NCBI GenBank assembly: GCA_948144175.1
Contig: CANXME010000212.1
Span: 1,551,501-1,615,500, forward strand
From: Closterium sp. NIES-65
Lineage: Eukaryota > Streptophyta > Zygnematophyceae > Desmidiales > Closteriaceae
Direction of reading: 5' to 3'
DNA: 64,000 bases
In this document: positions 474 through 54,240 of the stretch, piece after piece
Position numbering within the stretch: the first letter of the stretch is position 1
How the letters are laid out: each line of letters begins with the position of its first letter
The notes under the pieces: model-generated
Databases searched by the model: none
Told to the model about the DNA's origin: nothing
Seen by the model: the letters and a program-made list of their open reading frames with translations, nothing else
Program-made: the position numbers and the translations under genes

Positions 474-3400
474 GTGAGGATGAAGGGAGATGGGATGGCA
501 TGGGATGGGATGTGATGAGATAGGATAGCACAGAAAACCACTTCCCAGCACCCTTCCCTTCTGTCTATGCTCTCTCTCTTTTTTCACAGGAAGGAGCTGG
601 AGGGTCGCACCTTTGCAGAGGCGGTGTTTATGTTTGAGGACGCCGTGCCGTGCGGCGTGCAGCAGATGGTTGGCACGGAGGATGAGCGGACTATCATTAA
701 CCCACCTGGTGACACCGTGATTGAGGTGAGTGTGATTGAATCGAAGGGATGTAGTGTGACTGTAAGGGAGTGAGATTGGTTGGATGAAAGGAGAGTGATG
801 GAAGGGAGTGTGCCGTGTGGGATTGTACGGGGCGTGACGGATTGGATTGTGATTGAAGGGAGTGTGCTGTAGTGGGCATGGAGGATGAGAGGACGCTCAT
901 CAACCCTACTAGCTGTATTCCCCCCTTCACACTCTTCCCCACTCCCTCCTCACCCTCCTTTTCCTCACCTCTCGTCCGCGCCACATCAGCCCGGGGACCG
1001 TTTGCTGGTCATCGCTGAGTCAGCAGACAGCTACGCGCCACGTAAGCCGACCGCTGAGTCAGCAAAGGAGCGCGAGCTGGCGGAGAAGCGGCTGGCGTCG
1101 TTCGCGACGCCGTGGCACTACGACAGCCTGCCACGTGGCAACGTGAGGCGCCGCCACAACGTGCTGATTGCGGGCGAGTGGAGGGATGACGTGGCCGAGG
1201 CTCTCCTGCTTCTCAGTTCCAAGCTGGCTCCCCGTGAGTCTCGACTTTCAATACAGTCACACAGGTTTCGAGACTAGGTAGTTAGAAGTTTGAGAGGTTA
1301 GGTAGCTTCATTCTCTCCTTATGATGACGTAGCAGAGGCCCTCCTGATGCTCGGTGCCAAGCCAAGCTGGCTCCCCGAAAGTCTTAACTCGTTCATTCTG
1401 TGATAGATACAACATGTAGGTAGGAGCCTACGAAGTCAAGAGGCTAGTAGGTTTATTCTCTCCTCATGGCGTGGCACAGACAGACGTGAAAGAAGGAGTG
1501 TTTTGAGACGTCTCAAAACACTCCTTCTTTCACGAGCCTACGAGGTCAAGAGGCTAGTAGGTTTATTCTCTCCTCATGGCGTGGCACAGACAGACGTGAA
1601 AGAAGGAGTGTTTTGAGACGTCTCAAAACACTCCTTCTTTCACGAGCCTACGAGGTCAAGAGGCTAGTGGCTTTATTCTCTCCTCATGGCGTGGCACAGA
1701 CAGACCCTCCTGCTGCTCGGTGCCAAGCTGGCTGGCTCCCCGTGAGTTTCCTTCTTTCAATACAGTCACAGTCCGAGAGTCCCTATCCTATTAATCTCTT
1801 TTGGTAACATATGACATGCCAGAGGTTCCCTTTTCCTGCCCACCTTCCCCACACCTTGCCCTTCCCCTCCACACCCTTCCTCCACCCCCCCACTCCCTTC
1901 TATTCACCTCTCTGTCCCCCTCTGCCGCTCTCTACCCCCCATCTACCCCTGTCTAACCCCTTGTACCCCGTCTTTCGCCAAGCAGGCAGTCAGGTGGCAG
2001 TGATGGTCGCCTCTCCATCCCTCTCAGCGGCACAGCAGCGCCTCAACCCCTTTATCAAATCAGGCAGCCTCAACCTCAACCTCTCGCTCTGTGAGTCAGT
2101 CATTCATCGTGAGAGGGAGGGAGATAGCACAATCCGTGCCCGTTCTCAACCGACTTGTGTGAGTGATAGTGGAAACTTCAACACAAACCCTAGCATGTGT
2201 AGTCGAGTCAAGCAACCCTTCATCAAATCGAGCAACATCAAACCCCTCTGCACACCGGACGAGGGCCACCTGGGCTGCATGGCCGATCTGGAGAGGGTTC
2301 CTTCCTCTAGAGGCCTTCGACACTCTCATCGTGCTCGCCTCCCGCTCACACCACTCCCAATGTGTTCTCCCCCCTCTTCCCCCACCCCCTCCCCAACACG
2401 CCAGACCACGGGCACCTGGGCTCAATGGCCGATCTGGAGAGGGTTCCTCTAGAAGCCTTCAACACTGTTATCGTGCTTGCCCCCTGCTCGCACCACGCCT
2501 CACCCTTTCCCATTCCCCCTTCCCTTTCCTCCCCTTCTCCATCCAGACCACGGGCACCTGGGCTCAATGGCCGATCTGGAGAGGGTTCCTCTAGAGGCCT
2601 TTGATACTGTCATCGTGCTCGCCCCTCGCTCTCACCACGCCTCACCCACCGACCAGCCGCAGACGCGGGACGACGAGGGGGGAGCGGAGCGAGGGGAGGG
2701 TGGTGCTAGTGGTGGGGGTGAGGGGGGCGAGGGGGTGCTCATGCCGTCTGCTTCTGTCACTGCTATGATGATTCGGACGATTCAGCGGGAGCGGGGACAG
2801 GCGGGAGCAACAGTGCTTGCAGAGAGTGATTTTGCGGTGGAGGGGAGGGGAGAGGGAGGGGAGGAGGGCGGGGGAGAGGGGGAGGGGGAAGGGGAGGGAG
2901 GGACGGCGGCAGCGGCGGCGGCAGTGGAAGGGGATATAGTGAAGGAGGTGCAGGGGAGGTGGCTGACTGACAGTATTGATACGAATGCAGTGCACGCGAG
3001 GATTTTGGCTCAAACTGCCATGGACCCAGGTGGGTGTGGGTGGGTGCTGCTGCTGATGTGTGAATGAAGCCGTGTTGGGAAGGGGGAGGTGGAAGGGGAT
3101 ATGATGGGAGGAGGTGCAGGGGAGGTGGCTGACTGATAGTGTTGATACGAATGCAGTGCACGCAAGGATTCTGGCTCAAACTGCCATGGACCCAGGTGGG
3201 TGGGTGGGTGCTGCTACTGATGTGTGAATGGACCCAGGTGGGGGATGTAATGAAGGAGGTGCAGGGGAGGTGGCTGATTGACAGTGTTGATACGAATGCA
3301 GTGCACGCAAGGATTCTGGCTCAAACTGCCATGGACCCAGGTGGGTGGGTGGGTGCTGCTACTGATGTGTGAATGGACCCAGGTGGGGGATGTAATGAAG

Positions 3401-4069: not shown

Positions 4070-4100
<31 letters not shown>

Positions 4101-7698: not shown

Positions 7699-10600
7699 AT
7701 GATTCATTATGTCTTCCTCGCGTGCGTGCTGGTCGTTGCGTCTCCGCAATTCGCGGCGGCGCGCACCACGGCATCAGCCGTGGCGATGGGTGACGTGGCA
7801 GAAGAGACAAAACGCGCCGCCCTAACCGTTCCACGCCACGTGTCAGCCGAACCCGTGGCCGCCGCGCCGGGCCAGGCTCCGGAATTCTCGCTGATGCGAT
7901 CCGACGTGGCGGCCAACGCGTCGTTTGCTTACGCGGCAATCCTGTACATGGGCACGCCACGTGACTACGAGTATTACGTGGCGACACGTGTCATGCTGCA
8001 GACCGTTCGACGCACGGGGACCGTCGCGGATCTCGTCGTGCTGGCATCTGAGGACGTGCCTGCCACGTGGACCAATACGCTGTGAGCGAACCCTCATCGT
8101 TCATTAGACTTCAACCTGGAAAATGTGATGCACGGAGTAAAGTAAATCAGATCGAATCTCGTCATTAATCGGTAGAAGCATCGCTCCCCTCTTCCTCTCC
8201 CCCGCCTCCCCCTCTGCCAGCAAGAAGGAGGGCGTGCGGGTGGTGCGGGTGAGCAACATCCCCAACCCTTACCGGGGCAGTGCTGCCTTCAACCCGCGCT
8301 TCCCCTTCGCCCTCAACAAGCTGCTCGTATGGCGGCTGAGGGAGTACTCGTGCTGCTGCTGGTGGTAACACCCTCTCCCTCTCCCTCTTCCCCCCTTTCT
8401 CCCCCTGTTCCGATCCTCACCTCTGCCAGCAAGAAGGAGGGCGTGCGGGTGGTGCTGAGCAACATGCCTGTCTTCAACCCGCGCTTGTGTGTCAGTCAGT
8501 GGTATCATCTCAACCTCCCTTCTTCAACCCCACTTTTGAGTCGACTCAAAAGTCAACTCGGGTGGTGCTGAGCAACATGCCTGCCTTCAACCGCGCTTGT
8601 GTGTCAGTCAGTGGTATCATCTCGAGCTGACTTTTGAGTCGACTCAAAAGTCAGCTTGTGTGTCAGTCAGTGGTATCATCTCAACCTCCCTTCTTCAACC
8701 CCACTCTCTCCCAATCTCCCCTCCCCCAGCAAGAAGGAAGGGGTGCGGGTGGTGGTGCGAGTCGGCAACATTCCCAACCCCTACCGCACCACTCCCTCTT
8801 TCAACCCGAGCTTCCCCTTCACATCATGTGTGCTTCCCCTTGCCCATATTAGCAAGAAGGAGGGCGTGCGGGTGGTGTGAGTGAGCAACATCCCCAACCC
8901 TTACCGCACCTCGTCGGCCTTCAACCCGCGCTTCCCCTTCGCCCTCAACAATCTGCTCGCGTGGCGCCTGAGGGAGTACAAGCGAGTCGTGCTGCTAGTG
9001 GTAACACCCCTCTTCCCCCGTCCCTCCTCTCTCCCTCTCCTCATCTCCCCCTGTTCAACAGCAAGAAGGAGGGTGTGCGGGTGGTGCGTGTGAGCAACAT
9101 CCCCAACCCCTACCGCAGCACTGCTGCCTTCAACCCGCGCTTCCCCTTCGCCCTCAACAAGCTGCTCGCATGGCGGCTGAGGGAGTACAAGCGGGTGGTT
9201 CTGCTGGACGCTGATAACCTTGTGATGAAGAATATCGACGAGCTGTTCCAGTGTGGCAGCATGTGTGCCGTCTTTATTGACCCGTGCATCTTCCATACCG
9301 GGCTCATTGTGCTTAAGGTGAGTCAGCTTATATCAGGAATAAACGTGGGCGGCGCCTGAGAGAGTACAAACGAGTCGTGCTGCTGGATGCAGATAACATC
9401 GTAATGGAAGAACGTGGATGACCTGTTTCAAAGTGGCAGCATGTGCGCCGTGTTCATTGACCCGTGCACCTTCCACACCGGGCTGATCGTACTCAAGGTG
9501 AGTGCGTGTGTTGTGGGAGTCCAAGCGGGTCGTGCTGCTGGACGCAAATAACATCGTAATTGAAGAACGTGGACGAGCTGTTCCTCTGTGGCAGCATGTG
9601 CGCCGTCTTCATAGACCCGTGCACCTTCGATACTGGGCTCGTTGTGCTTAAGGTGAGTCAGCTCATAAAGGGTATGTATGCTGACAACCTTGTGCTGAAT
9701 AATGTGGACGAGCTCTTCCTCTGTGGCAGCATGTGCGCCATCTTCATAGACCCGTGCACCTTCCACACCGGGCTCATTGTGCTTAAGGTGGCTTACTTTA
9801 CGTCCAACGACTGCGGCGGACGAGGAGGGCGATTGCGTGGTGGTTAGTCCACCGACTGCGACGGTTGCTGTGATAGAGCTCCGTCGTAGGAGGAGGAGGA
9901 CGACGACGTGGTGGAGTTTTTTGGAGGTGTCTCAGCCCGTCCTCCCGCATTAGGCTGGCATCCAGCCAGAGTGCCTCCAATGCTGTCAGTTGGCCACGTG
10001 CACCATGCTGGCGGACGTGATCGACCCACAAGCATTTAAGGCCAGAAACAAGAGTGCGGTCAACCCTCGCAGCTTCGCTATTCCTGCGTCGGTCATTTTT
10101 GTCTCACCAAGATAAAGTGGTTTAAGTACCTTCAGGCTGCTAATACCTTCCAGAGAAGCGCTCGTTGCACACGTCCTCCTCCTCCACCTCATCGTCTGAG
10201 GGAGTACAAGTGTGTCGTGCTGCTGGACGCCAATAACTTGGTCTGAAGACAGTTCGTGGATGAGTTGTTCCTCTATGGAAGCGTGTGCGCTGTCTCATAG
10301 ACCCATGCACCTTTCGTACGGGCCTGGTTGTTTTCAAGGATGCACCCTCCCTCTACTGACGGCTCACCAGGCCCCCTTCATGCTTTTCGCATTCCACCCT
10401 CCTTATCTTCCCCACAGCTCCCTTGCCCCCCCCCCCCCCTCAGCCGTCAGTGAAGGTGTTTAAGGACATGATGCAGCAGCTGTGTTCTCTCCCGTCACAC
10501 ACCCTTCTTTCCTACCCTTCCCTCCCCTCCCTCCTAACACCCCCGCCCTCCCTCCCCCCAGCCGTCAGTGAAGGTGTTGAAGGACATGATGCAGCAGCTG

Positions 10601-14076: not shown

Positions 14077-16569
14077 ATGAAGCAGATTGGAAGCGTCGTG
14101 CCGTTACCAAAAAGCCTACTAGGGAGCTCCTGGTTCCCAGACCACCTAAGAAAAGCGTCTTGGATCAGTACCCTCGGAAACTCCTCTCAAACCACCCTGA
14201 TTGGTGGAAAAAATAGCCTGCTAGTGACTCCCTTGTCTCCGGGTCACCTAAGAAAAGCGTCTTGGATCAGTCCCTTCAGAAATGCCTCTCGAACCACCCT
14301 GATTGGTGGAAACACAAGCCGCGTTTCCGCGCACCTGCGCGATGGCAGTGATGGCGCAGGCGAGAACGGAAGGACAGGCGGAAGGCGGAAGCCGGTTGGC
14401 GCAAGGACAGGTCGCATTGGCGGAAGGTCGACTGGCGGAAGGGCGACCGGGGGAAGGGTCATGGGCGCAAGGGGGGACGCTTTGACGGTGGAGTTTGGGG
14501 AAGGGCGGAGTGTTGTGCTGGAGGGAGGAAGGCGATTGGCGGAGGTGGGGACGTGGGGAATCGGCGGTCCTGCTGAGTGGCTGGCGGAGGTGACGACCGT
14601 TGATGAGATGGCGGCGGTACTTAGGTAAGTGCTTGTGGTAAGGCGCTCGACTTTCAATCAGGGTGGTTGCTTGACTTGAACAGGTCAGTGACAGGAAGTG
14701 GGGAGGACGTGGGGAATCGGCGGGCCTGCGGATTGGCTGGCGGAGGTGACGACAGTTGATGAGATGACGGCGGTGCTTAGGTAAGTGCTGGTTTCACTTT
14801 GAGAATTGTCAAAAGCGGATTGGCTGGCGGAGGTGACAACAGCTGATGAGATGACGGCGGCGCTTAAGTAAGTGCTTGTGGGAGAGCTCTCAAGTTTGAT
14901 CAGGGTCTCCAACTACCTGTTCGTTTACGGTCAGAGTGCCCCGTAATGTTTCCTGCACCCTTTCCCTGTGGACTCAGGTTCTGCCTCAGAAACAGCAAAG
15001 CTATTTGCGCGGTAGTGACAGGCGAGGGCGCCAACTGCCTGTTTCTCAGTCAGGACTTCCCCCCACACATTCGCGCACTGTGTTCCTGTGCCTCCTCCCC
15101 TTCCCCCATCAAGCGCAGGTTCTGCCACAGCAACGCCATCCGCGCGCTGGTGATAGGCAAGGGCTCCAACTGCCTGTTTGTTAGTCGAGGCTATATCTCT
15201 TTCCTGTACCCCTTCCCTTCCCTCCGTTGTCTCTCAGGTTCTGCCACAGCAACGCCATCCGCGCGCTGGTGATAGGCAAGGGCTCCAACTGCCTGTTTGT
15301 TAGTCGAGGCTCTATCTCTTTCCTGTACCCCTTCCCTTCCCTCCGTTGTCTCTCAGGTTCTGCCACAGCAACGCCATCCGCGCGCTGGTGATAGGCAAGG
15401 GCTCCAACTGCCTGTTTGTTAGTCGAGGCTCTATCTCTTTCCTGTACCCCTTCCCTTCCCTCCGTTGTCTCTCAGGTTCTGCCACAGCAACGCCATCCGC
15501 GCGCTGGTGATAGGCAAGGGCTCCAACTGCCTGTTTGTTAGTCGAGGCTCTATCTCTTTCCTGTACCCCTTCCCTTCCCTCCGTTGTCTCTCAGGTTCTG
15601 CCACAGCAACGCCATCCGCGTGCTGGTGATAGGCAAGGGCTCCAACTGCCTGTTTGTTAGTCGAGGCTCTATCTCTTTCCTGTACCCCTTCCCTTCCCTC
15701 CGTTGTCTCTCAGGTTCTGCCACAGCAACGCCATCCGCGCGCTGGTGATAGGCAAGGGCTCCAACTGCCTGTTTGTTAGTCGAGGCTCTATCTCTTTCCT
15801 GTACCCCTTCCCTTCCCTCCGTTGTCTCTCAGGTTCTGCCACAGCAACGCCATCCGCGCGCTGGTGATAGGCAAGGGCTCCAACTGCCTGTTTGTTAGTC
15901 GAGGCTCTATCTCTTTCCTGTACCCCTTCCCTTCCCTCCGTTGTCTCTCAGGTTCTGCCACAGCAACGCCATCCGCGCGCTGGTGATAGGCAAGGGCTCC
16001 AACTGCCTGTTTGTTAGTCGAGGCTCTATCTCTTTCCTGTACCCCTTCCCTTCCCTCCGTTGTCTCTCAGGTTCTGCCACAGCAACGCCATCCGCGCGCT
16101 GGTGATAGGCAAGGGCTCCAAGTGCCTGTTTGTCAGTTGGGGCGCTATCTCTTTCCTGTACAAAATCGTTGCCTGCAGGTTCTGCCACAGCAACAGCATC
16201 CGTGCAGTGGTGACAGGCAAGGGCGCCAACTGCCTGTTTATCCGTTGTCAGAGTTTCCCTCACACACTCCTGCTTCCCATTCCTTCCCTCCCACCCCCCT
16301 CCCATCTCAGGTTCTGCCACAGCAACAGCATCCGTGCGGTGGTGATAGGCAAGGGCTCCAACTGCCTGTTTGAGGACCGCGGGTTCAAGGGGTGTGTGAT
16401 CGTCAACAGAATCGCGTACAAGCGAGTGGATGGAGTGGAGTGCACAGATACTGCTGCTCCTTCGTCTGTGCACCAATACAGCACCAGCAGCCATATCGAC
16501 AGCAGTAACAGCAGCGGCAGCAATAACAGAAGCAGCGGCAGCAATAACAGAAGCAGCAGCAGCACTGGT

Positions 16570-16607
<38 letters not shown>

Positions 16608-19568
16608 GAGCAGCAACGATGACAATGACAGCAGTAGCAGCAAACAGACATCTGCTCAGTACGACGCAGTGGTGCACGTAGGGGGAGGGTACCCGTTCAA
16701 CCTGCTGGGCGTGGAGTGCTCTCGAGACGGGGATACTGATTCCATTACCAGCTGTCATGGTGCTGAGGGGTACGATGCGGTGGTGCAGGTGGGGGGAGGG
16801 TACCCGTTCAACCTGCTGGGCGTGGAGTGCTCGCGAGACGGCCTCTCAGGGCTGGAGTTTGCAGGCGGCATTCCCGGCACCGTGGGGGGCGCTGTCTTCA
16901 TGAACGCTGGGGCGGACGGGCAGGTGAGACGCAATGGGGGAGTTGAGGGGAATACGGAGGAGCGAGAGTTGGGGCATTTTGGATGCTGTATTCATGAACG
17001 TGTAGAGAGGGTGTTTTTGAGACGTCTCAAAAACACCCTCTCTACACGAGGAGCGAGAGTTGGGGCATTTTAGATTCTGTATTCGTGAACGCATGTCCTG
17101 CCCTCTTCCTTCTTCCCTCCTGCCTGTTCCTGTCTCTGGAAACAGCGGACTGTCTGCTCTCAGTGGATGTGCGCTCTTCCACCGGCATTCTCCTCTCCTC
17201 CTCTCGCTCTGACCTCACCTTCACCTACCGTCACTCGTCCTTCCAGCACACGCCGTCCCTCCTTTCCCCTCCACCTCCCCTCCTTTCTCCATTCCTTTCC
17301 TCCCTCTTTTCCTCTGTTTCCCTCTCAGAACAGGCGACTGCTTGCTCTCCGTGGACGCCCTCTTTCCAACCGGCACTCTCTTTCTCCTTCTCTTGCGCCA
17401 TCACTCCATCACTCCCTCAGGAAACAGGCGACTGCTTGCTCTCCGTGGACGCCCTCTTTCCAACCGGCACTCTCTTCTCCTTCTCTCGCGCCCACCTCAC
17501 CTTTGCCTACCACCACTCGCCCTTCTAGCACAAGCCTTCCCCTGCCTTTTTCCCCTCCACCTTCCCCACTCCCTCCCGTTTCCTCCCTCAGGAATTATTG
17601 GACTGTCTACTCTCTGTGAATGTCCTCTCTTCAACCGGCAATCTTACCCCACTTTCCCCCTCCATCACTCCCTCAGGAAACAGCCAAATGTCTGCTCTCC
17701 AACCGGCAATCTCCTCTCCTTCCCTCACTCCCACCTCACATTCGCCTACCAACGCTCGCCCTTCCAGCAAATGCGCTCCCTCCTTCCCTTCCTCCCCCTC
17801 CCTCCCTCGCCCCGTTCCCTATGCAAGAAACAGCCGACTGTTTGCTCTCTGTGGACGTCCTCCCTCCCACCGGCACTCTCCTCTCCTTCTCTTGCTCCGA
17901 TCTCACCTTCGCTTACCACCACTCGCTCTTCCAGCACAAGCCTTTTCCTCCCGCCCTCCCTCGCTCCCCCCCCCCCCCACCCTCCCTCACAGGAAACAGC
18001 CGACTGTTTGCTAGCTGTGGACGTGCTCTCTCCCACCGGCACCCACCTCACCTTCCCTCGCGCCCACCCCACTTTCGCCTACCGCCACTCGCCCTTCCAG
18101 CACATGCCCTCCCTCACCCCTTCCCCCCTCCCTCCTGCCCTCCATTTCCTCCTCCAGGAAACAGCTGACTCCTTGCTTTCTGTGGACGTCCTCTCTCCGA
18201 CAGGCACCCTCCTCTCCTTCCCTCGCGCCGAACTCACCTTTGCCTACCGCCACTCGCCCTTCCAGCACATGCCCTCCCTCACCCCTTCCCCCCTCCCTCC
18301 CGCCCTCCATTTCTTCCCACAGGAAACAGCAGACTGTCTGCTCTCTGTGGACGCGCTCTCTCCGACGGGGACGTTTCAATCCTTCTCTCGCTCTGACCTT
18401 ACCTTAGCGTACCGCCACTCGCCCTTCCAGCACATGCCCTCCCTCCTCCCATTCCCCCCTCCCTCCCGCCCTCCATTTCCTCCCCCAGGAAACAGCCGAC
18501 TGTCTGCTCTCTGTGGACGTCCTCTCGTCAACTGGGGATCTCCTCTCCTTCCCTCGCACCGACCTCACTTTCGCCTACCGCCACTCGCCCTTCCAGCGCA
18601 TGCCGGACTGTGCTGCCATAGTGGGAGCAACTTTCGGGCTGAAAAGGAGCAGTGAGGCGCGGGACAGGCAAAGACGATACATGGACAGGTGAGAGGCTGC
18701 TAGCCGTTGACTCCGTTGACTCGTTAACTCGGGAGCTCGTTGCTTCCCGCAACTCGCCCTTCCAGCGCATGCCGGACTGTGCTGCCATAGTGCAATAATA
18801 CCATACATGGACAGGTGAGCTGCTTCCCAATATGCTTGCTGCTGGAGATTGTATTTTGTTTCTTACCGGATCCCATCCACATATGTACAGAAAATAACAG
18901 TATTTGACGCAGAAACTCAACTTCTGTTGATGGCAGAATTATCTGGCTCCAAAGACACCTCGGGTATTGGGAAGGCAGTGGGACAATCTCACCCTGAGCA
19001 TCAACCTGAGCATCACCTTGATCCAGGCTGTTGGAGACCTTGGTTGCTATTACCATAACATCAGCCTGCCAGACAGACACAACAGCCCCCTTTCTCCCCA
19101 ACCTCTGTCCTTTGTCCACTTACTCCCAACAAGCCTTCTTTCTGACCTCCCTGCCAAATCCCTACGAATTCCCCACCCTATTTCTGTGCCAGGCGGCGAC
19201 AGTCTCAGCCCATTGCTGATCGCTCTGTTGGGTGCATATTCCGCAACCCTGCACCTCCCCTTGGTTCTGCTCCCTGCTCTATCTCTTCTCCTCCTGTGGG
19301 TTCCTCACCTCCAGCCGGTTTAGCAGCAGCTGGTGCTTCCGCAGTTACTCTCCCTGCATCTGCAGGTGCTCTAATAGACCGGGCTGGGTTGAAAGGCCTG
19401 CATGTTGGAGATGCTTTTGTGTCGCCCATGCATGCTAATTTTCTGGTGAATGGTGGGGCGTGCAGTAGCGAGGATATGGAAGGGCTGATTGTGGAGGTGA
19501 AAAGGAGGGTGAGAGAGGAATTCGGGGTGGAACTTGTAGAAGAGGTTAGGCGGATCCCATATGAATGA
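14077..19568 (+). CDS. murB: UDP-N-acetylenolpyruvoylglucosamine reductase (MurB), probably plastid-targeted
   Basis: Exons 14077-14624, 16311-16923, 18489-18688 and 19193-19568 join in frame to 578 residues. MurB reduces enolpyruvyl-UDP-GlcNAc to UDP-MurNAc (FAD, NADPH) for peptidoglycan. Landmarks are [27 protein letters not shown] (R-A-V-V in the intact copy), [20 protein letters not shown] (FAD site), [50 protein letters not shown] and the terminal catalytic Glu region [10 protein letters not shown]. The catalytic Ser position is Cys (GCIFRNP). The long, basic, Ser/Gly-rich N-terminus (about 140 residues, with an internal duplication of HLRKASWIS) fits a transit peptide. Odd insertions are a poly-Ser run (16495-16640) and a duplicated YDAVV(H/Q)[14 protein letters not shown]. 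Mosses and charophytes use plastid peptidoglycan for chloroplast division. Confidence 0.92.
14704..14876 (+). repeat. Two donor-side copies of the MurB exon 1 tail
   Basis: [16 protein letters not shown] with donor GTAAGT recurs near 14735-14780 and 14820-14872, just after the intact exon end at 14624. Confidence 0.85.
14980..16310 (+). repeat. Array of truncated MurB exon 2 copies, 119-bp unit
   Basis: The acceptor plus the first 61 nt of exon 2 ([20 protein letters not shown]) and about 58 bp of intron repeat with a 119-bp period at 15121, 15240, 15359, 15478, 15597, 15716, 15835, 15954 and 16073. Copies are nearly identical. Diverged copies flank the array at about 14985 and 16186. The intact exon is last, at 16311. 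Confidence 0.95.
16999..17048. repeat. 50-bp perfect palindrome, GACGTC centre, in a MurB intron
   Basis: Axis at 17023/17024 with 25-base arms. The block GAGCGAGAGTTGGGGCATTT ... GAACG occurs on both sides (from about 16961 and 17049). Confidence 0.95.
17139..18488 (+). repeat. Nine acceptor-side copies of MurB exon 3
   Basis: Heads of exon 3 ([20 protein letters not shown]...FAYRHSPFQ) start near 17139, 17328, 17421, 17592, 17676, 17827, 17993, 18158 and 18323, then intact at 18489. Copies end near the FQHMPS equivalent and run into C/T-rich intron. A tail copy ([11 protein letters not shown]) follows at about 18756. Confidence 0.92.
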
Positions 19569-20329: not shown

Positions 20330-23300
20330 ATGGCGTCTGCCGTCGCCCTTCAAGGGAGCACGTCGACCTCGAGTGGCCTGCTCGCCGCGCCTCGGGTGGG
20401 TTCCAGCAAGCCGCGCTGCGCCTCTCTCGCCTCAACCTTAGTACCGCTGCCACGCAAGCTTACCTCTTCTAGAATTACACCCGCGCAGCCCTTTTCCCGT
20501 CAAAGGTGCAGCGTCGTTGTAAATGCTCAGGCCCCTCCCTCGTCCACTGAAGACGAGTCAGCCCCGGCTTCGCAACAATCTACAAGCCTCCCATCATCAT
20601 TCACCGAAGCGAAGACTTCTCTTCTCGACGCTCTTAAAGCCGCAGTTAAGCCAGCACTCGCCGCGCTCCTAATTTCCGCCGTCCTCGCCGCCGGCGCTCC
20701 GGACGCCGCACTCGCCGCGATGGGCGGCGGAAGAATCGGCGGAAGCGGCTTCGGCGCCTCCCGCATGCGCTCCTACGCCCCACCCCCCTCCGCGCCCCGC
20801 GGCGGCGGATACTCCTACAACGCTCCCCCCGTGATCGTCGGCCCGTCCGTCCCGTTCTTCGCGCCGTCCCCGTTCTTCTTCTTCGGCCCTTCCATCGCCT
20901 ACGGCGGCGGCGGCGGCGGCGGGATCTTTAATCTCCTCGTTATCGGGATCGTAATCTGGTTCGTGTCGCAGTCAGTTATGGGGTTTCTGAGCTCCGCGCA
21001 GGAGGAGGGAGTGTGGCAGGAGACGCAGCGCAGCAGCGTGGTGAGGCTGCAGGTTGGGTTGCTAGGCTCTGCGAGGCGCCTGCAACGGGATCTGGACCGG
21101 ATCGCGGATCGCGCGGATGCGAGCTCACCCGAGGGCCTTCATTACATCCTGCAAGGTACAGTATCTACTCTACAGTAGTTTACATTGTTGCAAGGTGTGT
21201 TAAGGTGTTTTGATGTGTCACTAAGGTAATCCCCCCTCACCTACCACACTTCAAGTGTTCTTCTGTTTCTGTTTTCTCTTGCGTCCTCTATCCTTTACGC
21301 GCTCTTCGTTTTTGTTTTTCTTCATCCCAACCTCCGTACACACTTATTTTTTTAGAAAGTAAAAATAACGAGAGACCATATTTCCGTTCGCTGCTTCTCT
21401 CTCCCTCGCTTCCTCTTTCCCACTCCCCTCGTCCCCATTCATCAGAGACGGTGCTCGCGCTGCTGCGCAATCCGGACTATTGCATCTACGGCTTCTCTTC
21501 TGTAAGTGCTGGGAGCCATGTGTGACCCGAGTTAGGTGCTTCCGTACTTGAGTGTTCTGGCTTAGGACCTAGTGGGTAGCAACCCGGACTGTTGCATCTA
21601 CGGCTTCTCCTCCTTAATTACTGCAAAATTGAGTGGTCATTATGTGTGACCCGAGAAAATTGTGTTGAGAGGGAAAAGGAGGCAGCGCGTTAGTTTCCAT
21701 CCATGTGCTGCTTTTAAGTGTTACATGCTCCTTAACCATGCTCTTTTCTGCTTCACCCTTTGCTCCGTCCCCCTCTCCTTCCACCTACAGCAAGTTATGA
21801 GGCGCCTCAAATAATCATCTGCTTCACCCCAATCTCCATATCCCTCTCCTTCCACCCACAACAACCCTCCTCTCCCCTCCTCTACCTCTCCCTTCATTCC
21901 ATGAGCCTTCAGTCACATGGCCATGGGGAGGAAGAGCATTTTGAAATCATTTGTTTTGCTCCCCCTTCCCTCTTCCCCCATCTCCCACATCAACAGTCAG
22001 AGGTGAATAACGACTCGTATGTGGGAGAGGCAGCATTCAACCGCATGAGCATGGAGGAGCGGAGCAGGTTCAAGGAGGAGACCCTGGTTTCCCTCACCCT
22101 CCTCCTCCCTTTCCATCATTCCCAACCCTTCAGTCAGAGGTGAACAATGACTCCTTCGCTGGCGAAGCAGCGTTTAACCGCATGAGCATGGAGGAGCGGA
22201 GCAAGTTCAAGGAGGAAATCTTGTTTCCCTCAACCTTCCTCTCCTGTTCCCCCGTCAACCCCTCATACCTACAGTCAGAGGTGAACAACGATTCATATGC
22301 GGGAGAGGCAGCGTTCAATCGCATGAGCATGGAGGAGCGGAGCAGGTTCAAGGAGGAGACACTTGTTTCTGTCGTTCAACCTCCCCCCTTCCCCCCTCCA
22401 TACCATATCTCCCAACAATACAGTCAGAGGTGAACAACGACTCATATGCGGGAGAGGCAGCTTTCAACCGCATGAGCATGGAGGAGCGGAGCAAGTTCAA
22501 GGAGGAGACACTGGTCAACGTGGACGGCATCAGGCGGCGAATCACGCGCAAGCCCAGCCAGGACCGCATGAACTCCGAATACATTGTGGTATGTAGTGTT
22601 GTGGGATGCTGAGTGTATACTGTGGGGAGTTTGAGTGTATACTGTGGGGATTTTGAGTGTATACTGTGGGGAGTTTGAGTGTAAACTGTGGGGAGTTTGA
22701 GTGTATACTGTGGGGAGTTTGAGTGTACGTTGTGGGGAGTTATAGTGTATATTGTGGGGAGTTTTAGTGTATATTGTGGGGAGTTTTAGTGTATATTGTG
22801 GGGAGTTTTTGTGTATATTGTGGGGAGTGTTAGTGTATATTGTGGGGAGTGTTAGTGTATATTGTGGGGAGTGTTAGTGTATATTGTGGGGAGTGTTAGT
22901 GTATATTGTGGGGAGTGTCAGTGTATATTGTGGGGAGTGTCAGTGTATATTGTGGGGAGTGTCAGTGTATATTGTGGGGAGTGTTAGTGTATATTGTGGG
23001 GAGTGTTAGTGTATATTGTGGGGAGTGTCAGTGTATATTGTGGGGAGTGTCAGTGTATATTGTGGGGAGTGTCAGTGTATATTGTGGGGAGTGTCAGTGT
23101 ATATTGTGGGGAGTTTGAGTGTATATTGTGGGGAGTTTGAGTGTATATTGTGGGGAGTTTGAGTGTATATTGTGGGGAGTTTGAGTGTATATTGTGGGGA
23201 GTTTGAGTGTATATTGTGGGGAGTTTGAGTGTATATTGTGGGGAGTTTGAGTGTATATTGTGGGTAGTTTGAGTGTATATTGTGGGGAGTTTGAGTGTAT

Positions 23301-39581: not shown

Positions 39582-40318
39582 CAAAGCATGAACAGCTGAA
39601 GCTCATGGAAACTCATCTATGATTCATGAAACTCGCCTGAGGCTCATCGAAACTCAGCTGAGGCTCATGGAAAACTGACCTGCGGCTCATGACAACTCAC
39701 CTGAAGCTCATGAAACTCTCGTGAAGCTCGTGAAACTCACCTGAAGCTCACGAAACTCACCTGATGCTCATGAAACACACCTGAAGCTAATGAAACTCAC
39801 CTGAAGCGCACCAGCAGGAATGGAACCAAGGCGAGTCAGGGATTCCTTCGGGTCACTCGCACATTTGACAACCGACTCGTACTCTCTCCTGCTGCCAGCA
39901 CAGTCACCTGCAATGCAACAAGTCACGACAAACATGAGGCGGATTGCAGGAGAATGTAACCCATCAGGAGTGATCATGCCACAATACAAGGACAAAAGGT
40001 GCCCTCCGCTTCTGCCAGCACTGCTGCTTGCGGCGAATAACCCGTGAAATAATGGTCTTGGGCAAAACACAAGAAAGAAACGCGCAGTCTGCTGCTGCCA
40101 GCACTGACTGTCATCTGCGGTGAATGTTCTGCTCTTCTTCCCTGAAGGAGTTACAAACAACGCATGCATGAAAACCAAAGCGCTCCCCTTTTTTTTCCAT
40201 CCTTCCGTCTTCACACAAAGAGAAAATTTGACCTGCAGCACTCATAGATGCAATGCTTCAAAATGCTGCTTACCTTGTGAGTGAGAATCAGACTAGGCCC
40301 ACCCTTGGACCAGTCCAC

Positions 40319-42339: not shown

Positions 42340-43010
42340 CGTCTATCCGTCTCTGGAATCTATCCTCAAGGCGGCGGCGGAGCGTACGAGCGCATGCGGG
42401 AGGCGCAAAAGCCGCCGCTTCCGCCGATTCTTCTGCCTCGCAATGAAGCCGTGATCGTTGCTTCGATAATACATTTCCAGCGATCGTGACTGCTGCAGCA
42501 AACCCATGCGCGACCCATTTCGAGAAAACAGCGATTGCACCGTCACGCGAGCATTGGAAAATGGCTGCTGACTGGCGTCAGCGCGACTCGGAGGTGACGG
42601 GAATGAGCAGGCAAGGAAAGCTAGGTGTTGTGCCACGCATGCAGGCAGCTTCTAGGCGCGAGCAATGAAGAACCACGTGTAATGAGGTTATTTTTGAGAC
42701 GTCTCAAAAATAACCTCATTGGGCGAGGTGTTGTGCCTCGCATGTGGGCAGCTACTAGGCGCGAGCGGGTGAGGACAGTGAGCTGCTGCCTGTGGTATGC
42801 AGGCTGCTACTAGGAGCGAGTGATTCCAGACTTGGGAGAGTGTGTGTCTGATGAAAATGGTGGTGCAGTTCGGCTGAGTGAGCGCAACGCGCGCAATGTG
42901 CAACCAGCGGGTGAGGAAAGCAAGCTGGTGCCTGAGGAGAATCAGTGGTGCAGCTCGGCTGAGTGAGTACAACGCGCCATAACAGTTCTTTCTAGTTATA
43001 TCAGCGTTTA
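42340..43010 (-). repeat. Upstream region of FLAP1 copy B, inverted copy of 28.38-28.86 kb
   Basis: It shares CAGCGATCGTGACTGCTGCA, GCGCGACTCGGAGGTGACGG and CAGTTCGGCTGAGTGAGCGC with the other copies. Here it has also been locally duplicated around a 40-bp palindrome. Confidence 0.9.
42681..42720. repeat. 40-bp perfect palindrome, GACGTC centre
   Basis: Axis at 42700/42701. Flanked by diverged direct copies of GGTGTTGTGCC(A/T)CGCATG...AGGCGCGAGC (from about 42625 and 42726). The equivalent position near 28.56 kb in copy A has neither the palindrome nor the duplication. Confidence 0.95.
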
Positions 43011-45473: not shown

Positions 45474-46200
45474 GGGATGCTGTAGGGACACTACGGGATA
45501 CTGCTTAGTTCTAGCTTTGTACAATTATTCTAATGTTCTATTTTATTTGTTATAGCCATTGTTGTGTTATGAATCATAATAGAATAGTTCAGGATGGCAT
45601 CACGGCAAGAAGCCTCTATCTGTTCTGGAAACAGGGATGGTAGATCTGGATGCTAGTATTCTGTTACAACATCAGGCCATGCACAGGCTTTGTCTTGTGT
45701 CCTGTATGAAGTGATCAGAGGCATACCAGTAGCACTATTACAAACCTTTAGGTTGGTTCCTGCCATCCAATCTCACATCACATTATATGGTAAGCGAATG
45801 AATCTGACATGACAAGTGCATACGTCCAGCCAGCACCTTTGACCGTATGTATCGTAGCCATTCTGTTTTGCTAGCTGGTAGAAGGATTCGCCATGCCACC
45901 CTTTGCTGGGAAAACTGACAAGACAGCTTCGGTAGGTAGGTGAATATCAGTAGGAATCTTGAAGGCGCAAACGTGAATCTGCATATGGAAAGAACAGATG
46001 CGGATGTGGTAAGGAAACTAGGTTAGCAGCAGACCAATGACACCAAAATGAGAGGAGAAACACAGCAATATGACTAATAAACCAACCTCAGCCATGTTCC
46101 ATTCTTCTCCTTGCACCCTCAGCCAGCACCCCTCACATGGTTCATGAACTCTTGCCACGTGGCAAACACAGGCCAATGACATGCTGGCAGTGCCAAGCTG
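45474..46200. other. 3' flank of geneX gamma and spacer
   Basis: The first 100 bp match the beta 3' flank. 45840-46130 also resembles 37890-38170 (GGTGAATA...ATGGAAAGA, AACCTCA...CCATTCT). No gene seen. Confidence 0.5.
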
Positions 46201-47160
46201 GAATCGAGCGACGAGGAGATGGATAATGGAGGTGAGGTGGACATTGAGTGGACTGAACAGCTTTTCGAGAATTCTAAAAAAACCGAGTGGACTGAACAGC
46301 CACCTCTGGTGCATCAGAGGGAAAGTCACCTCATTGCCGGTTCAGATGAGCAGGTACTGTTCAGGACGTGTTTTTTGGAAAATCTCAAAAAACATATTGC
46401 CGGTTCAGATGAGCAGGTACTGTTCAGGACGCAACCTGTGAATGAATGATCGACGATGAGATGAGATGGCCTTTGAGTCGACTCAAAAAGTCCCTTCAGG
46501 TGAGTAGGTACTTGGGACGTAACCTGTGCGTGAATGACCGACCATGAGATGAGATGGATGCAACCTGTGAACGGCCATGAGCTTGCTAATGAGCTCTCTC
46601 TTTAAGTGAACAGCCATGAGCTCATGCTTGCTCAAGTGCTCTCTCTGGCTGGCCATGATAGCATGATGGCAGTGTGAATGGGCCAATGTGCTTGCTCTGG
46701 CTGACCATGATAGGATGATGGCAGGTCAGAGGTGAGAAGGTGCTGTGATGATGCCAAGAGCACCTGTGAACGGCCAAGAGCTCGCTGCTGTGAGGCCTGG
46801 GTGATGGGCCACGCCACAAAGCTGCTTTTGAGTCGACTCATGTGTGAACGGCCAAGAGCTCGCTAATGTGCTCCCTTTGGGTGAGCAGCAGGCGATGATG
46901 GGTGAGTAGCGGACTTGGGAGTGTATGGATGATGACAGGAGGGGAGGGGGAGAGGGGGAGAGAGAGGTGGAGGGAAGAGGGAGGTGGAGAGGGAGAGGTG
47001 AAAAAGAAGAGTGGGAGTATGGCTGGCTGGCTGTGTGCACTTGTGAGAATTCTCAAGGGTGCTGGTTGGTTGGATTGAGTTGCACGCTGGCTAAGCATGT
47101 GGAATCGATGACTCACAGGGATTTGAGTGCGAAGGTTCAATGATTACCAAAAAACATGCC
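46201..47160. repeat. Patchwork of short duplications around palindromes
   Basis: GAGTGGACTGAACAG is duplicated around a GAATTC-centred near-palindrome (46261-46282). CCGGTTCAGATGAGCAGGTA is duplicated around another imperfect one (46369-46394). GTGAACGGCCA(A/T)GAGCTCGC recurs several times. TTTGAGTCGACTCAAA is at 46472-46487. No supported gene. Confidence 0.7.
47044..47055. repeat. 12-bp palindrome, GAATTC centre
   Basis: TGAGAATTCTCA, a central-hexamer variant of the palindrome family. Confidence 0.7.
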
Positions 47161-47199
47161 GTTTGAGTCAGCAAACACCAAGGCAACACAACACACGTG

Positions 47200-47765
47200 C
47201 ACTGCACATCATTCCCCACCCACACCAAACCCGAACCTGACACACAAGGTTTAATGCCCTAGAAACGCCAAGACCTTGCCTGGATCCGGTGACCATCTGC
47301 TTTCTCGTGAGACAGAATGCAGACTGCAGCATCAGTAAGACACTTAAGAAACTACTGAACCTGACACACAAAGTATGATGCCCTAGATACGCCAAGACCA
47401 TGCCTGGATCCAGACACCACATCTGTTTTCTCGTGAGACAGAATGCAGCACCACCAGTGAGACACTTGAAGTCATTTTGAGGCGCCTCAAAATACGCCTG
47501 GATGCAGTGACCATCTGCTTTTTCGTGAGATAGAATGCAGAATGCAGCACCAGTGAGATGAGACACTTGAAGAAGTTACTGGACCTTAACCGAACCAGGC
47601 ACACAAGGTTCAATACGCCAACACGACATCAGCAATATATGCAAAATGCAGCACTAGTGAGACACTTCAAAAGTTACTGAACCTTTACCGAACCTGGCAC
47701 ACAGGGTTTAATACGCCAACACGACATCAGCAGCATTATATGCAGAATGCAGCACCAGTGAGACA
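47200..47765. repeat. Degenerate tandem copies of a block of about 120 bp
   Basis: GAACCTG(A/G)CACACA(A/G)GGTTTAAT, CGCCAAGACC and GACAGAATGCAG(CACCA)GTGAGA blocks recur about five times with decreasing similarity. A palindrome lies within (47474-47493). No gene recognised. Confidence 0.75.
47474..47493. repeat. 20-bp perfect palindrome, GGCGCC centre
   Basis: ATTTTGAGGCGCCTCAAAAT, axis 47483/47484, between two copies of the GAATGCAGCACCA...GACACTTGAAG block. Confidence 0.95.
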
Positions 47766-48401: not shown

Positions 48402-48402
<1 letters not shown>

Positions 48403-48489: not shown

Positions 48490-48493
<4 letters not shown>

Positions 48494-49529: not shown

Positions 49530-49925
49530 TCCTCTCTCACCCTTGTCTCGCCCTGCACTGCACTCACCCCTGTACTGTCGCACCTCCCACTCGCAAGGTC
49601 CGCTTTTCCCCAGTGGCTCTCGCGGCGCCGTCTGCTGCACCGTCCATCCCACTCATCCTCTTCATCCTCCTCCCCCACCTCCTACTAGCCTCTCTACCCC
49701 CCACCCGGCACCCACCCCTCTCTCACCCTTGTCTCGCCCTGCGCTGCACTCACCCCTGTGCTGTCGCGCCTCCCACTCGCAAGCTCCGTTTTTTCCTTAG
49801 AAGCTCTCGCTGCGCCGTCTGCTGCGCCTTCTGAGACGTCTCAATAGTCACCTCCCACTCGCAAGGTCCGCTTTTTCTCTAGAAGCTCTCCCTGCGCCAT
49901 CTGCTGCGCCGCCTTCTGTCCGTCC
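49530..49925. repeat. Three copies of a block of about 150 bp, GACGTC palindrome at one joint
   Basis: CACCTCCCACTCGCAAG(G/C)TCCG and CTGCGCCGTCTGCTGC recur near 49577, 49768 and 49850. TGAGACGTCTCA (49832-49843) is at the second joint. Confidence 0.8.
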
Positions 49926-51459: not shown

Positions 51460-54240
51460 CTACAATATAAGTGCATCGTCCATCTCAAAATCTGCAAACC
51501 CGGCATCCACGAGTGCGGCAAGCAACTCATGCGCCACGATTGGCTTGCGCACGGCTCCATCCATCCCCGCCTCAAAGCACGCTCGCTTCACCCCAACGTC
51601 CAGATCTGCTGTTAGTGCTATGATGCACAACCGCTGAGGACAGGCCCTTCTCAAACCCGCCACTGCTTCTGTCACTGCCTCTCCCACTACTGTTGACTCT
51701 TGAGGCGTCTGAAAAGAGAATTTGCTGTCTGAACCGTCGGCTGCCGTCTTTCGAGTCGACTCAAAAGTCGCTGCTTCTTTCACCACCTCTCCCACTGCTG
51801 TTGACTCTTGAGGCGTCTGAAATGAGAATTCGTTGTCTGAACTGTCGGCTGCTGTCGTCGACTCTTGTGGCGTCTGAAAACTGAACTCGCTCGCTGCCTC
51901 GTCATCGGCTCTTGCTTCATTAGCTCCTTCTGCTTTGCTTGCTTTGTCTGATTCGTCTGTTCCTGCCTTATCGGCTGCCGCTGTCCCTGCCTGGCTAGCT
52001 CTTTCATCGTCTGCTTCGTTGGCTGCTGTTGCCTCCGCCACGATAGAAAGCTGCTGTTCGCTCTCCATGCGCCGGATTCGCCGAGCCGTTTCGAATCTGT
52101 AGCATGCGGGAGCAGTAGACACAAGGGTAACGAAGGTGGAGTTTGTAGAAAAAAGGGACAAGAGCTCAATGTCAAAAGCAGCAGTCAAACCAGTGGAGTA
52201 GCAAGACGACTTTTGAGTCGCCTCAGAACAATGCCAAAAGCAGCACTCAAACCGATGGAGTGGTGCCATGCACCGGATTTTACGTGCCGTTTCAATCTGC
52301 CTCTTGAGAATTCTCAAAAGGGGGAAGTGTTGATCGGTACAATGGCCGGCGGGTAATGGTATCAAGGAGGAGGGAGGCAGAAGCAGGGAGAGAGGCAGAA
52401 GCAGAGAGAGAGGCAGAAGCAAGGAGTGAGGCCAAGAAGGCACAAACTATCAGGAAGTGTATGAAGATCAGAGACGACTCAACACCCTTGAGTCGACTCA
52501 GAGATCTTGAGACGTCTCAGAACTCGATTCTGAGATGACTAAAAGCAGGGAGGCACTCACCCGTCAATGTCAGGAGGCATGTGGAGGTCTAGCAGCACCA
52601 GTTGGATGGGAGGGGAGGGGGAGTAGGGAGAGGGGTCCATGTGGGAGGAGACAGCTTGCAGGGTGTCCTCTCGTGAAGCCAGCAGCAGCACGTGTGCCCC
52701 GTAGCCCTGCAGTGTTCGCCGCGCCACCATGCGGTTCACCGCGTTGTCATCCACCACTACCACCCGCCGCCCCGCCACCGCCGCCTGCACCGCCGCCTCT
52801 GCGCCGCCCGCTCCGCCGGCCAAAATCCCCCCAACACCCCCCGTGCTGCTCCCCCCCATGCTGCTCCCGATGCTGCCCGCTGCTAAGCGGAAAGTCGAGT
52901 GTGCCATTACTTGCAGGTGCAGCCTTGCTGGGCTCAAAGGGTTTACCGGGCTTAGAGGGTTCACTGGGCTTAAAGGGGCTATTGGGCTTGCAGGGCTTAA
53001 CCGCGCTATTGGGCTCAAAGGGTTGAGTGGGCTTAACGGGGCTACTGGGCTGAAAGGGGCCACTGGGCTCAAAGGGACCACTGGGCTCAAAGGGACCACT
53101 GGGCTCAAAGGGGCCATTGGGCTCAAAGGGGCCACTGGGCTCAAAGGGGCCATTGGGCTTAAAGGGAAAGAATGTAACGAGGAGCTCCGAGAATGGCCTC
53201 TGGGAACCCCCATCTAGTGCTGCTGCAGCCTTCTGGATTGCCCCTCACGCCCCCCCCAACGCTTGCTGCTGCTGCCCCCAGGTTCGGTTGGGGGAGGCGG
53301 TGCAGAGAGGGGTAGGGCCAGCAGAATGGTGGTGCCGATGACACTGTCTGACAGCACTGCCATGCTTCCCCGCATCTCCGCCACCTGGGATGGTGGAGGA
53401 GGGGTGGAGGGAGGGAGTGATGGTGGGAAGGGAGATGTTTTGGAGGGGTCAGTGTGGATAAGGGAAGACCATGCAGGATGGTGGTGCCTGTGGTGTTGTC
53501 TGACAGCACTGCCATGCTTCCCCGCATCTCCGCCACCTCGGATGGTGGAGGGGGGATGGAGGGAGGGAGTGATGGTGGGAAGGGAGATGTTTTGGAGGGG
53601 TCAGTGTGGATAAGGGAAGACCATGCAGGATGGTGGTGCCTGTGGCGCTGTCTGACAGCACTGCCATGCTTCCCTGCATCTCCGCCACCTGGGACGGGTC
53701 GGGAGGTTAGGAGAGCGGCACCGCGGAGTGAAGAGGATTGCGAGTAAAGGCATGTGGTGTATGCATGGCCTCACGGAGCAATTTACACATGGCAGGCATT
53801 TTTGAAGCCTCAGCCATTAATGCTGTAGCACCTTCAGTTCCCACTTCTTCAACAGCCTTGCATTGTCGATGAGAAACAAACCTTTTGAGGCGCCTCAGAA
53901 GCCGTTCTCTGACATTGCCAACCTCCTCAAGTGTCACACTACGTCCGACAGTCGCCGCATGGATCTATACACATCCATGCTGTCATGCAGATCCCAATGC
54001 ATCTCGCTGGACAAATATATGGCCGACATTCGCCGCATGGATCTATACAAATCCATGTCTCGTGCAGATCCCAATGCACTAGTAAGTCCAACTGTTTCTT
54101 TTACGTCCTAGACTTGTTTGGCAGCCCTGCCAAGATGGTAGTGCTCGAGTTTTGAGATGTCGCAAAACCTTGCAAAGATGGTAGTGCTCACTCCAGCCTT
54201 AGGAAACTCAACGTTGTGTCATCAACAGGCAACCAGCCAT
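51460..54240 (-). CDS. Hybrid histidine kinase, 3' part (ATPase G2 box and receiver domain)
   Basis: Read on the minus strand, an exon ending near 53230 carries VAEMRGSMAVLSD(S)VIGTTI, the G2-box end of a HATPase domain. Then come a (PLSPVA)n linker and a receiver domain: VVVVDDNAVNRMVARRTLQG (acidic pair), LVLLDLHMPPDIDG (phospho-Asp), a splice from 52561 to 52095, FETARRIRRMES, then CIIALTADLDVG (Thr) and DGAVRKPI (Lys). It ends at 51460. Plant proteins of this kind include cytokinin, ethylene and osmosensing hybrid kinases feeding a phosphorelay; which one cannot be told because the sensor and HisKA parts are missing. The receiver holds an unusual insertion of about 135 residues. The copia element begins directly upstream, so the gene is probably truncated. 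Confidence 0.75.
51746..51769. repeat. Near-palindrome inside the receiver reading frame, GTCGAC centre
   Basis: GAGTCGACTC core (51753-51762) with imperfect arms. It lies in frame between two copies of the FSFQTPQEST(A/V)VGE(V/A)V repeat. Confidence 0.8.
52304..52317. repeat. 14-bp palindrome, GAATTC centre, in a kinase intron
   Basis: TTGAGAATTCTCAA lies beside a duplicated exon head (FETARKIRCM near 52260-52295, a degenerate copy of FETARRIRRM). Confidence 0.85.
52489..52519. repeat. Two adjacent palindromes, GTCGAC and GACGTC centres
   Basis: TGAGTCGACTCA (52489-52500) and TGAGACGTCTCA (52508-52519) lie eight bases apart: two central-hexamer variants side by side. Confidence 0.9.
52915..53180 (-). 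repeat. 18-bp coding minisatellite (PLSPVA) in the kinase
   Basis: About 14 units of GGGCTCAAAGGGGCCA(C/T)T (plus-strand sense) encode Pro-Leu-Ser-Pro-(Val/Met)-(Ala/Val) on the minus strand, upstream of the receiver. Confidence 0.85.
53290..53705 (-). repeat. Two acceptor-side copies of the kinase G2-box exon
   Basis: On the minus strand VAEM(R/Q)GSMAVLSD.ATGTTI recurs from about 53690 and 53545 before the continuing copy at about 53390. Earlier copies run into intron after the LPLS equivalent. Acceptors are CCCAG|GTGGCGGAG-like. Confidence 0.8.
53886..53897. repeat. 12-bp palindrome, GGCGCC centre
   Basis: TGAGGCGCCTCA, with imperfect CTTTTG/AGAAG extension. Confidence 0.85.
53940..54240. 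repeat. Duplicated blocks next to the copia truncation
   Basis: CGCCGCATGGATCTATACA and CAGATCCCAATGCA each occur twice (about 53953 and 54034). AAGATGGTAGTGCTC is duplicated around an imperfect palindrome (54149-54168). Confidence 0.8.

Follow-up and report, generated by a model that had tools for sequence, protein, structure and literature searches.

Short palindromes between duplicated target sequences in the nuclear genome of Closterium: candidate self-symmetrising micro-elements

What are the short palindromes that recur throughout a 64,000-nt stretch of the genome of the green alga Closterium sp. NIES-65 (C212:1551501-1615500, called the window in what follows), and how did they come to lie there? 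The assembly that we searched comprises 874,075,685 bases in 2,400 contigs. The location is nuclear and not organellar, because the window carries copia elements and, by our reading, split genes, and because its contig measures at least 1.6 Mb, in an assembly of 874 Mb. The original prediction for this DNA had proposed a dispersed palindrome family with the core TTTTGAG-N6-CTCAAAA. We observed that such a family indeed exists far above chance throughout the genome, and so clearly withstands the test by genome-wide frequency that the prediction had set, but that its spacer is N4: the exact core TTTTGAG-N4-CTCAAAA was found 30,327 times compared to 4 matches of the same pattern reversed, which served as the genome-wide control, whereas the N6 form was found 44 times compared to 4 in its reversed control. 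Within the window we found 11 perfect palindromes of at least 16 bp (mean of 1.1 in 50 Markov-1 sequences), 8 exact N4 cores where the Markov-1 sequences led us to expect 0, and 26 cores with at most 2 mismatches against about 0.35 expected (20 Markov-1 sequences); among cores with 4 or 5 mismatches no excess was seen in the window (23 versus 21 and 82 versus 111). The palindromes are real and far above chance expectation. From the predicted start, 18 of the 20 window sites that had been listed as perfect are perfect over at least 12 bp; the exceptions are 24189, a 26-bp imperfect palindrome whose perfect core begins at 24195, and 51753, where the perfect core is 10 bp. Among the ten sites listed as imperfect, 24613, 46261, 46369, 52214 and 54149 carry 1-2 mismatches in the core and 3689, 5595 and 49324 carry 3, while 40319 and 50635 are absent from the sites with at most 4 mismatches.

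Many of the palindromes are flanked on both sides by copies of one sequence, so that they look like insertions between duplicated target sequences, a feature that the prediction had missed. We scored a duplication as abutting when it lay within about 10 bp on each side of the palindrome and reached a score of at least 12. By this measure 48 of 70 sites with at most 1 mismatch were flanked by a duplication compared to 89 of 600 random positions; the 189-kb sample used here consisted of the window, the contigs C6 and C9 and five pieces of long contigs, and is biased as it is mostly made up of the window and these two palindrome-rich contigs. Counting one site per locus, abutting duplications were found at 26 of 42 loci compared to 92 of 504 controls placed at most 2 kb away (Fisher P = 4e-9, with twelve controls drawn per locus and therefore not fully independent). 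When gaps were allowed and a score of at least 9 was required, the numbers were 28 of 33 exact-core loci compared to 153 of 396 controls, and 34 of 46 loci compared to 204 of 552 controls for cores with at most 1 mismatch. Nineteen isolated sites have duplicates with an identity of at least 80%; in these, the duplication measures 13-86 bp, with a median of 30 bp, and the inserts have a length of 15-52 bp (median 26). In all 45 rows, with array members counted, the duplication ranges from 13 to 137 bp with a median of 41. Some sites form arrays of the type (A-P)n-A, in which target copies (A) alternate with palindromes (P), and all three arrays that we inspected start and finish with a target copy. 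Discrete insertion with duplication of the target is well supported by these data.

At one locus the state without the insert could be observed directly. At 46246..46300 a 23-bp insert (46262-46284, centre AATT) lies between exact 16-bp duplicates (46246-46261 and 46285-46300). Searching the genome with window positions 46200-47600, we found the empty counterpart on three other contigs (C2196, C1652 and C104), where the flanks join at a single 16-bp target and the palindrome is absent. A direct count of GAGTGGACTGAACAGC gave two copies in the window, one on either side of the insert, and a single copy in each of the three contigs, and the alignment to one of them agrees with the empty site. 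These contigs match the window at 80% over about 650 bp upstream and at 88% over 720 bp of a neighbouring copy of geneX, a group of related-looking genes of which further related copies lie on the same three contigs. Such a comparison would point to gain of the palindrome rather than to its precise loss. Among the scored matches (the best 40 of 337 candidates) of window positions 16850-17200 there was no empty site, and the genome search with positions 1950-2700 of locus L032 showed none either. Two more contigs, C2079 and C1759, share stretches of 100% identity with the window (in 46200-47600 and 16850-17200), and C1759 shares such sequence with C9:126950-127700 as well; these stretches may represent recent segmental duplicates or haplotigs.

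A second insertion can be followed at the protein level. The open reading frame (ORF) at 51460-52443 on the minus strand, which has a weak response-regulator match (E = 4e-4, under the Pfam cut-off), contains four palindrome sites that had been overlooked in this ORF. At 51663..51856 a 22-bp insert (51749-51770, centre TCGA) together with an 86-bp duplication accounts for 108 bp in frame and thus for 36 extra residues. These 36 residues are absent from P0121 and P0122, two homologues from Closterium sp. Naga37s-1, and from P0124, while P0125 and P0126 lack the entire repeat region. The peptide EFSFQTPQEST, which is repeated in the homologues, looks like the product of an older, decayed palindrome (51698, 51806).

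Do the arms belong to the element, or to the DNA in which it lies? The prediction had explained the varying palindrome lengths by arms extending into flanking sequence, so that the arms would be local flanking DNA. This was rejected, as the 50-bp palindrome at 16999-17048 is matched at at least 39 other places with 86-100% identity (40 of 337 candidates scored), although several of these lie on contig pairs resembling duplicates and the number of independent copies is accordingly lower. For 29 of the 39 the best match is confined to positions 144-206 of the 351-nt query, in which the palindrome occupies about 149-199, and the other 10 reach beyond the palindrome on one or both sides. Two of four related loci that were fetched, L042 and L045, carry a 48-bp palindrome in different flanks and, to our eye, seem to have flanking duplications of their own. 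The exact 50-mer is limited to the window and C2079 genome-wide, probably because the outermost CG belongs to the target and because other copies have changed; the 48-bp palindromes of L042 and L045 are without this CG. The 32-bp palindrome also recurs elsewhere, and its pattern AGKTGAC...GTCAMCT was found at 621 places genome-wide. Compared in this way, the arms are a property of element families and not of the flanking DNA. At C1651:696848-697920 we also recognized 15 copies of the 32-bp palindrome with a 74-bp period, apparently an insertion turned minisatellite.

If the arms are part of the element, their variation can be compared within and between sites. Among the first 50 exact cores listed, 46 have a self-complementary central tetramer (TCGA 22, ACGT 12, GCGC 10 and AATT 2) and the remaining 4 are one transition off (TTGA, TCAA, ACAT and AATC); a folded single strand would leave these central 4 nt as a loop. 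Hybrid centres that join a TC half to an AC half (ACGA and TCGT) occur 55 + 59 = 114 times in the 30,327 cores, whereas random pairing of the halves would give roughly 5,500-6,400, as calculated from the TC and AC shares (16 and 9 of 40 sites read, 22 and 12 of the first 50 listed). At the outer G/T position of the 32-mer we found 4 hybrids among the first 50 listed compared to 19 expected, and 4 of 40 compared to 16 expected after arrays had been collapsed by hand. Both tallies of 50, taken from the 30,327 cores and from the 621 places, are ordered by contig, include tandem arrays and are non-random, so that the expected hybrid numbers are rough. The base at position 10 from the centre is alike in both arms at 34 of 40 sites (39% expected), and the agreement declines with distance, being 12-14 of 40 for positions 17-19. 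In the AC class the stretches CGTGAAAGAAGGAGTG-, CGTGTAGAGAGGGTG- and AATGAGGTTA- were observed ahead of TTTTGAGAC, each perfectly mirrored in its own partner arm, while the matched arms of other sites are shorter and in part no longer than the core, or shorter still. Neither a mismatch nor a G-U pair occurs in the window's four longest palindromes, which measure 50, 50, 50 and 40 bp and of which the first two are identical. Stepwise compensatory evolution should leave G-U pairs or bulges, so that long arms without either argue for arms derived from one template. From this covariation of the arms within sites we infer that both arms of each new copy may be made from a single template. The outer ends, by contrast, appear to be cut back independently of each other in the TC class: in the 19 TC rows, bases by which one arm exceeds the other agree with the TC-class master at 40 of 53 positions, and the positions shared by both arms at 61 of 66, an agreement that is inflated as the master was derived from the same sites. 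Telomerase-like head-to-tail addition was considered as well and rejected, since head-to-tail TC half arms number 289 + 550 (control 1 + 19) against 30,327 palindromes with centres of any class; among those listed, these 839 are largely short tandem arrays. Such departures from a simple palindrome are rare; an example is position 9027 of L032, where an arm is followed by a second copy of itself in the same orientation (GAGGTGACTTTTGAGTC x 2).

The explanation that we consider the best, and to which we give about even chances, is a hairpin micro-element that symmetrises itself and is captured at staggered breaks. It would comprise a family of ultra-short mobile elements with lengths of about 18-50 bp that are perfectly palindromic when newly formed. 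Each new copy would join at a staggered chromosomal break, whose overhangs, single strands of 13 to about 90 nt, would then be filled in so that the target is directly duplicated on both sides. The inserted molecule would be a folded hairpin of which one arm had been copied from the other by snap-back synthesis. Every new copy would be re-symmetrised by this arm copying, which would explain why arms are varied between sites and matched within a site. At a later stage the duplicated targets could give rise to nested insertions and to (A-P)n-A arrays resembling minisatellites. The excess, the geometry of the insertions, one empty site, the identity of the families and the covariation of arms within sites are observed, and the staggered break, the hairpin and the snap-back copying are proposed to account for them.

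A number of observations weigh against this explanation. Even with gaps allowed, 5 of the 33 exact-core loci remain below a score of 9, and the gapped controls score high owing to the abundance of tandem repeats in the genome. Not a single site with at most 1 mismatch was found in the 50 kb taken from long contigs. The three contigs with the empty site are mutually 99.5-100% identical over 3,061 bases and therefore represent one independent case at the DNA level. In the ORF at 51460-52443, the homologue P0123 has a diverged extra repeat at the position of the 36 residues without the palindrome-encoded stretch, so that repeats have been gained or lost in this ORF also without a palindrome. Some hybrids do exist, both among the centres (114 of 30,327) and among the outer arms (4 of the first 50 listed). 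Furthermore, 16 of the 19 TC-class rows have unequal arms, for which a pre-formed hairpin can account only if its ends were trimmed. Finally, local duplications are not restricted to the palindromes: we counted 97 with other spacers and 18 without spacer compared to 20 with a clearly palindromic spacer, although at least 8 of the 97 belong to the same palindrome family below the threshold. As repair-type duplication is thus common in the genome, the palindromes could be captured passengers.

On this account fill-in and end joining of staggered breaks would produce tandem duplications all over the genome, and short palindromic fragments, being abundant and readily released as hairpins, would serve as passive filler without any mobility system of their own; we regard this as somewhat unlikely. 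The lengths of duplications with and without palindromic spacers overlap, the palindromes share with the products of staggered-break repair an adjacent direct duplication of tens of bp, and breaks with complementary single-stranded ends are described to yield small tandem duplications (PMC8355091). However, such repair leaves a non-conserved junction sequence, whereas here one family recurs genome-wide. Generic capture gives no account of one core occurring 30,327 times, it leaves the 50-bp unit at at least 39 other places and the scarce hybrid centres unaccounted for, and it presupposes a supply of many copies of a single family that is itself unexplained. Alternatively, and in our judgement unlikely, a hairpin RNA could have been retroposed in the manner of a short interspersed nuclear element (SINE), with a reverse transcriptase priming on the nicked target at any point of the 3' arm and copying through the hairpin, and with a second nick at variable distance producing duplications of variable length. 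Duplications of variable length, as we observed them, are known from SINEs and long interspersed nuclear elements (LINEs) and are typical of target-primed reverse transcription, for which a median of 30 bp at the isolated sites is nevertheless long. All five palindromes that we tested as RNA fold strongly (z -4.6 to -11.5), the independent truncation of outer ends whose longer-arm-only bases still fit the master would suit such a process, and copia reverse transcriptase is abundant in Closterium (all of the 120 best matches listed for the ORF at 54654-56690 are Closterium proteins). Yet the inserts show neither poly-A nor the 3' tail, fixed 3' end and single orientation of SINEs and LINEs, being palindromic and, in the TC class, cut back on both sides; no known RNA family was matched in the window at the Rfam gathering threshold; and plain copying would not restore symmetry, although diverged arms are identical within a site.

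Remnants of DNA transposons with terminal inverted repeats (TIRs), either deleted exactly to the centre or left as excision footprints, are very unlikely in our view. The palindromic arms do look like paired TIRs, and miniature inverted-repeat transposable elements (MITEs) attain high copy numbers. The entire insert forms a single inverted repeat that lacks an interior. However, its centre is self-complementary in nearly all of the first 50 cores listed, and no longer relative was noticed in the loci read, although no search aimed at one was made. Cut-and-paste transposons, MITEs included, moreover make short target duplications of fixed length, in contrast to the variable 13-86 bp at the isolated sites. 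That the palindromes are protein-binding or other functional sites under selection is highly improbable: the conserved 14-bp core would fit such a role, but an empty paralogous site, an insertion in an ORF, tandem arrays and outer arms that are varied but symmetric would not. We give practically no credence to an artefact of assembly or sequencing. Perfect palindromes can disturb long-read assembly and some contigs duplicate others at 100%, but the copies are in differing states of decay, one insertion is nested in another, one copy lies in frame in an ORF, and the 30,327 exact cores stand in different surroundings in the part that we read.

Besides the two loci described above, palindromes with duplications were recorded in the window as follows. 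In the array at 1424..1705, target copies of about 62 bp alternate with two identical 50-bp palindromes (1485-1534 and 1595-1644) in the form A-P-A-P-A. The palindrome 8532-8553 (centre TCGA) lies at 8446..8703 in a duplication of about 87 bp (8446-8532 and 8559-8703) that was seen by gapped alignment and missed by the ungapped test, its right duplicate being interrupted by a nested insertion; this nested 32-bp palindrome (8625-8656, locus 8595..8682) has exact 29-bp duplicates of its own (8595-8623 and 8654-8682). At 14728..14876 a degenerate palindrome near 14797-14814 separates the halves of a 62-bp duplication (14728-14789 and 14815-14876), and to our eye the duplicate may consist of an exon end with its splice donor. 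The 50-bp perfect palindrome 16999-17048 (centre ACGT, locus 16957..17091) is flanked by a 44-bp duplication (16957-17000 and 17048-17091), a 22-24-bp insert with centre GCGC at 21747..21864 by a diverged one of about 47 bp (21747-21793 and 21818-21864), and the imperfect palindrome 24189-24214 (26 bp, locus 24168..24235) by one of 18-21 bp (24168-24188 and 24215-24235). At 24520..24630, where the palindrome 24563-24588 stands in a 41-bp duplication (24520-24560 and 24590-24630), the copied target contains part of an older palindrome, visible at 24545 and 24615, for which no duplication of its own was found.

Further along the window, the 40-bp palindrome 42681-42720 (centre ACGT) has a diverged duplication of 41-54 bp (42620..42776), and the 27-bp insert 46369-46395 has exact 36-bp duplicates (46333-46368 and 46396-46431, locus 46333..46431). 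Abutment is unclean at two sites: the palindrome 46472-46487 (centre TCGA, locus 46433..46557), with a diverged duplication (46433-46469 and 46521-46557) that possibly extends further leftward and a strict-test score of 4, and the 20-bp palindrome 47474-47493 (centre GCGC), which lies within a diverged local duplication (47420..47540) and scores 2.5. The 22-bp insert 49829-49850 (centre ACGT, 49769..49910) is accompanied by a 60-bp duplication. An insert at about 52211-52228 with unlike centre halves, TC and GC, stands in a diverged 33-bp duplication (52167..52261), and a degenerate insert of 21-28 bp in one of 15-22 bp (54125..54189). As had been predicted, the copia elements (54654-64000) and the three related-looking geneX ORFs (25637-27406 on the minus strand, 35984-37555 and 43929-45473 on the plus strand) are free of palindromes, with no site of at most 2 mismatches in either; two of these three ORFs were tested and gave no Pfam match.

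The window is rich in other repeats as well. A 119-bp exon-like unit is repeated 8.8 times at 99% identity at 15116-16161, beside a FAD-binding exon that is MurB-like by our reading, and similar exon-sized tandem duplications occur at 2267, 9172, 10426, 17695 and 21993. A 22-bp minisatellite (TGAGTGTATATTGTGGGGAGTT) is repeated 34 times at 22610-23363. Minisatellites with units of 19-42 bp lie at 38587-38929 and 39258-39807; some of them contain degenerate TGAG/CTCA-like palindromes, and they are perhaps aged descendants of the same inserts.

How do the palindromes compare to known systems? SINEs and MITEs are, like the palindromes, non-coding, dispersed and target-duplicating, but they are usually longer, SINEs are tailed, and MITEs have fixed short duplications. 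Bacterial repetitive extragenic palindromic (REP) sequences are imperfect palindromes with tag bases, and the mitochondrial double-hairpin elements of Allomyces reportedly consist, as their name says, of two hairpins. The latter, described as small mobile hairpin units (Paquin et al. 2000, as cited in PMC7218506), differ from the palindromes in being mitochondrial. The greatest likeness in appearance is to the short palindromic repeats in the organelles of Volvox carteri and to the bacterial REPs and REPINs. The Volvox palindromes, of 10-100 nt, have proliferated and are called selfish, with an unsettled mechanism (Smith and Lee 2009, PMC2670323). They resemble ours as short dispersed palindromes able to form a hairpin in a green alga; they are, however, located in mitochondrial and plastid DNA, have a 3-5-nt loop, and their nuclear copies are judged to be inert transfers (PMC2670323), whereas the Closterium palindromes are nuclear, have a self-complementary centre in place of a 3-5-nt unpaired loop, and are abutted by target duplications. 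The terms 'duplication' and 'direct repeat' are absent from the main text of the Volvox paper (PMC2670323). REPs and REPINs, associated with the transposases called RAYTs, are high-copy, dispersed palindromes of 20-40 bp thought to be moved by outside help (PMC3116915, PMC3733652), but they are prokaryotic, and the description consulted mentions no long target duplication (PMC3116915). Closest in outcome are the small tandem duplications at breaks, which share the small direct duplication and for which no conserved palindromic insert is mentioned in the material consulted (PMC8355091). Introners likewise copy themselves into many genes genome-wide (PMC9860276) but create introns, while we noticed no splice signals in the palindromes, one of which lies within an ORF. 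In the open-licence literature searched, as far as its descriptions go, we found no such nuclear palindromic element, in line with the view that the family resembles no described one, and a term search for 'palindrom' found nothing in the main text of the genome study on the C. psl. complex (PMC10407611). Judged by these descriptions, the combination of a nuclear location, a fully self-complementary palindrome family and long, variable duplications would occur in none of the compared systems.

The broadest interpretation, to which we give somewhat less than even chances, is that the palindromes make up a new class of mobile DNA in the nucleus. These micro-transposons, about 18-50 bp long, would be self-symmetrising, with one arm templating the other at each move, and in tens of thousands of copies they would seed minisatellites and add peptide repeats to proteins. 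As part of this interpretation, and with the same reservation, their inserts would often be smaller than the target that they duplicate. To our knowledge nuclear transposons are far larger than about 20 bp; if the interpretation is true, nuclear mobile DNA can be as short as this and yet prolific. The inserts would then be a natural mark of staggered breaks and of their overhang lengths across the genome of an alga whose group is sister to land plants, and they would make visible how a single insertion can be followed by a nested one and end as a minisatellite. Coding sequence would gain in-frame repeats by the same route, as with the 36 residues in the ORF at 51460-52443. As Closterium strains vary widely in copy number (PMC10407611), the inserts could moreover be used as thousands of insertion markers between strains.

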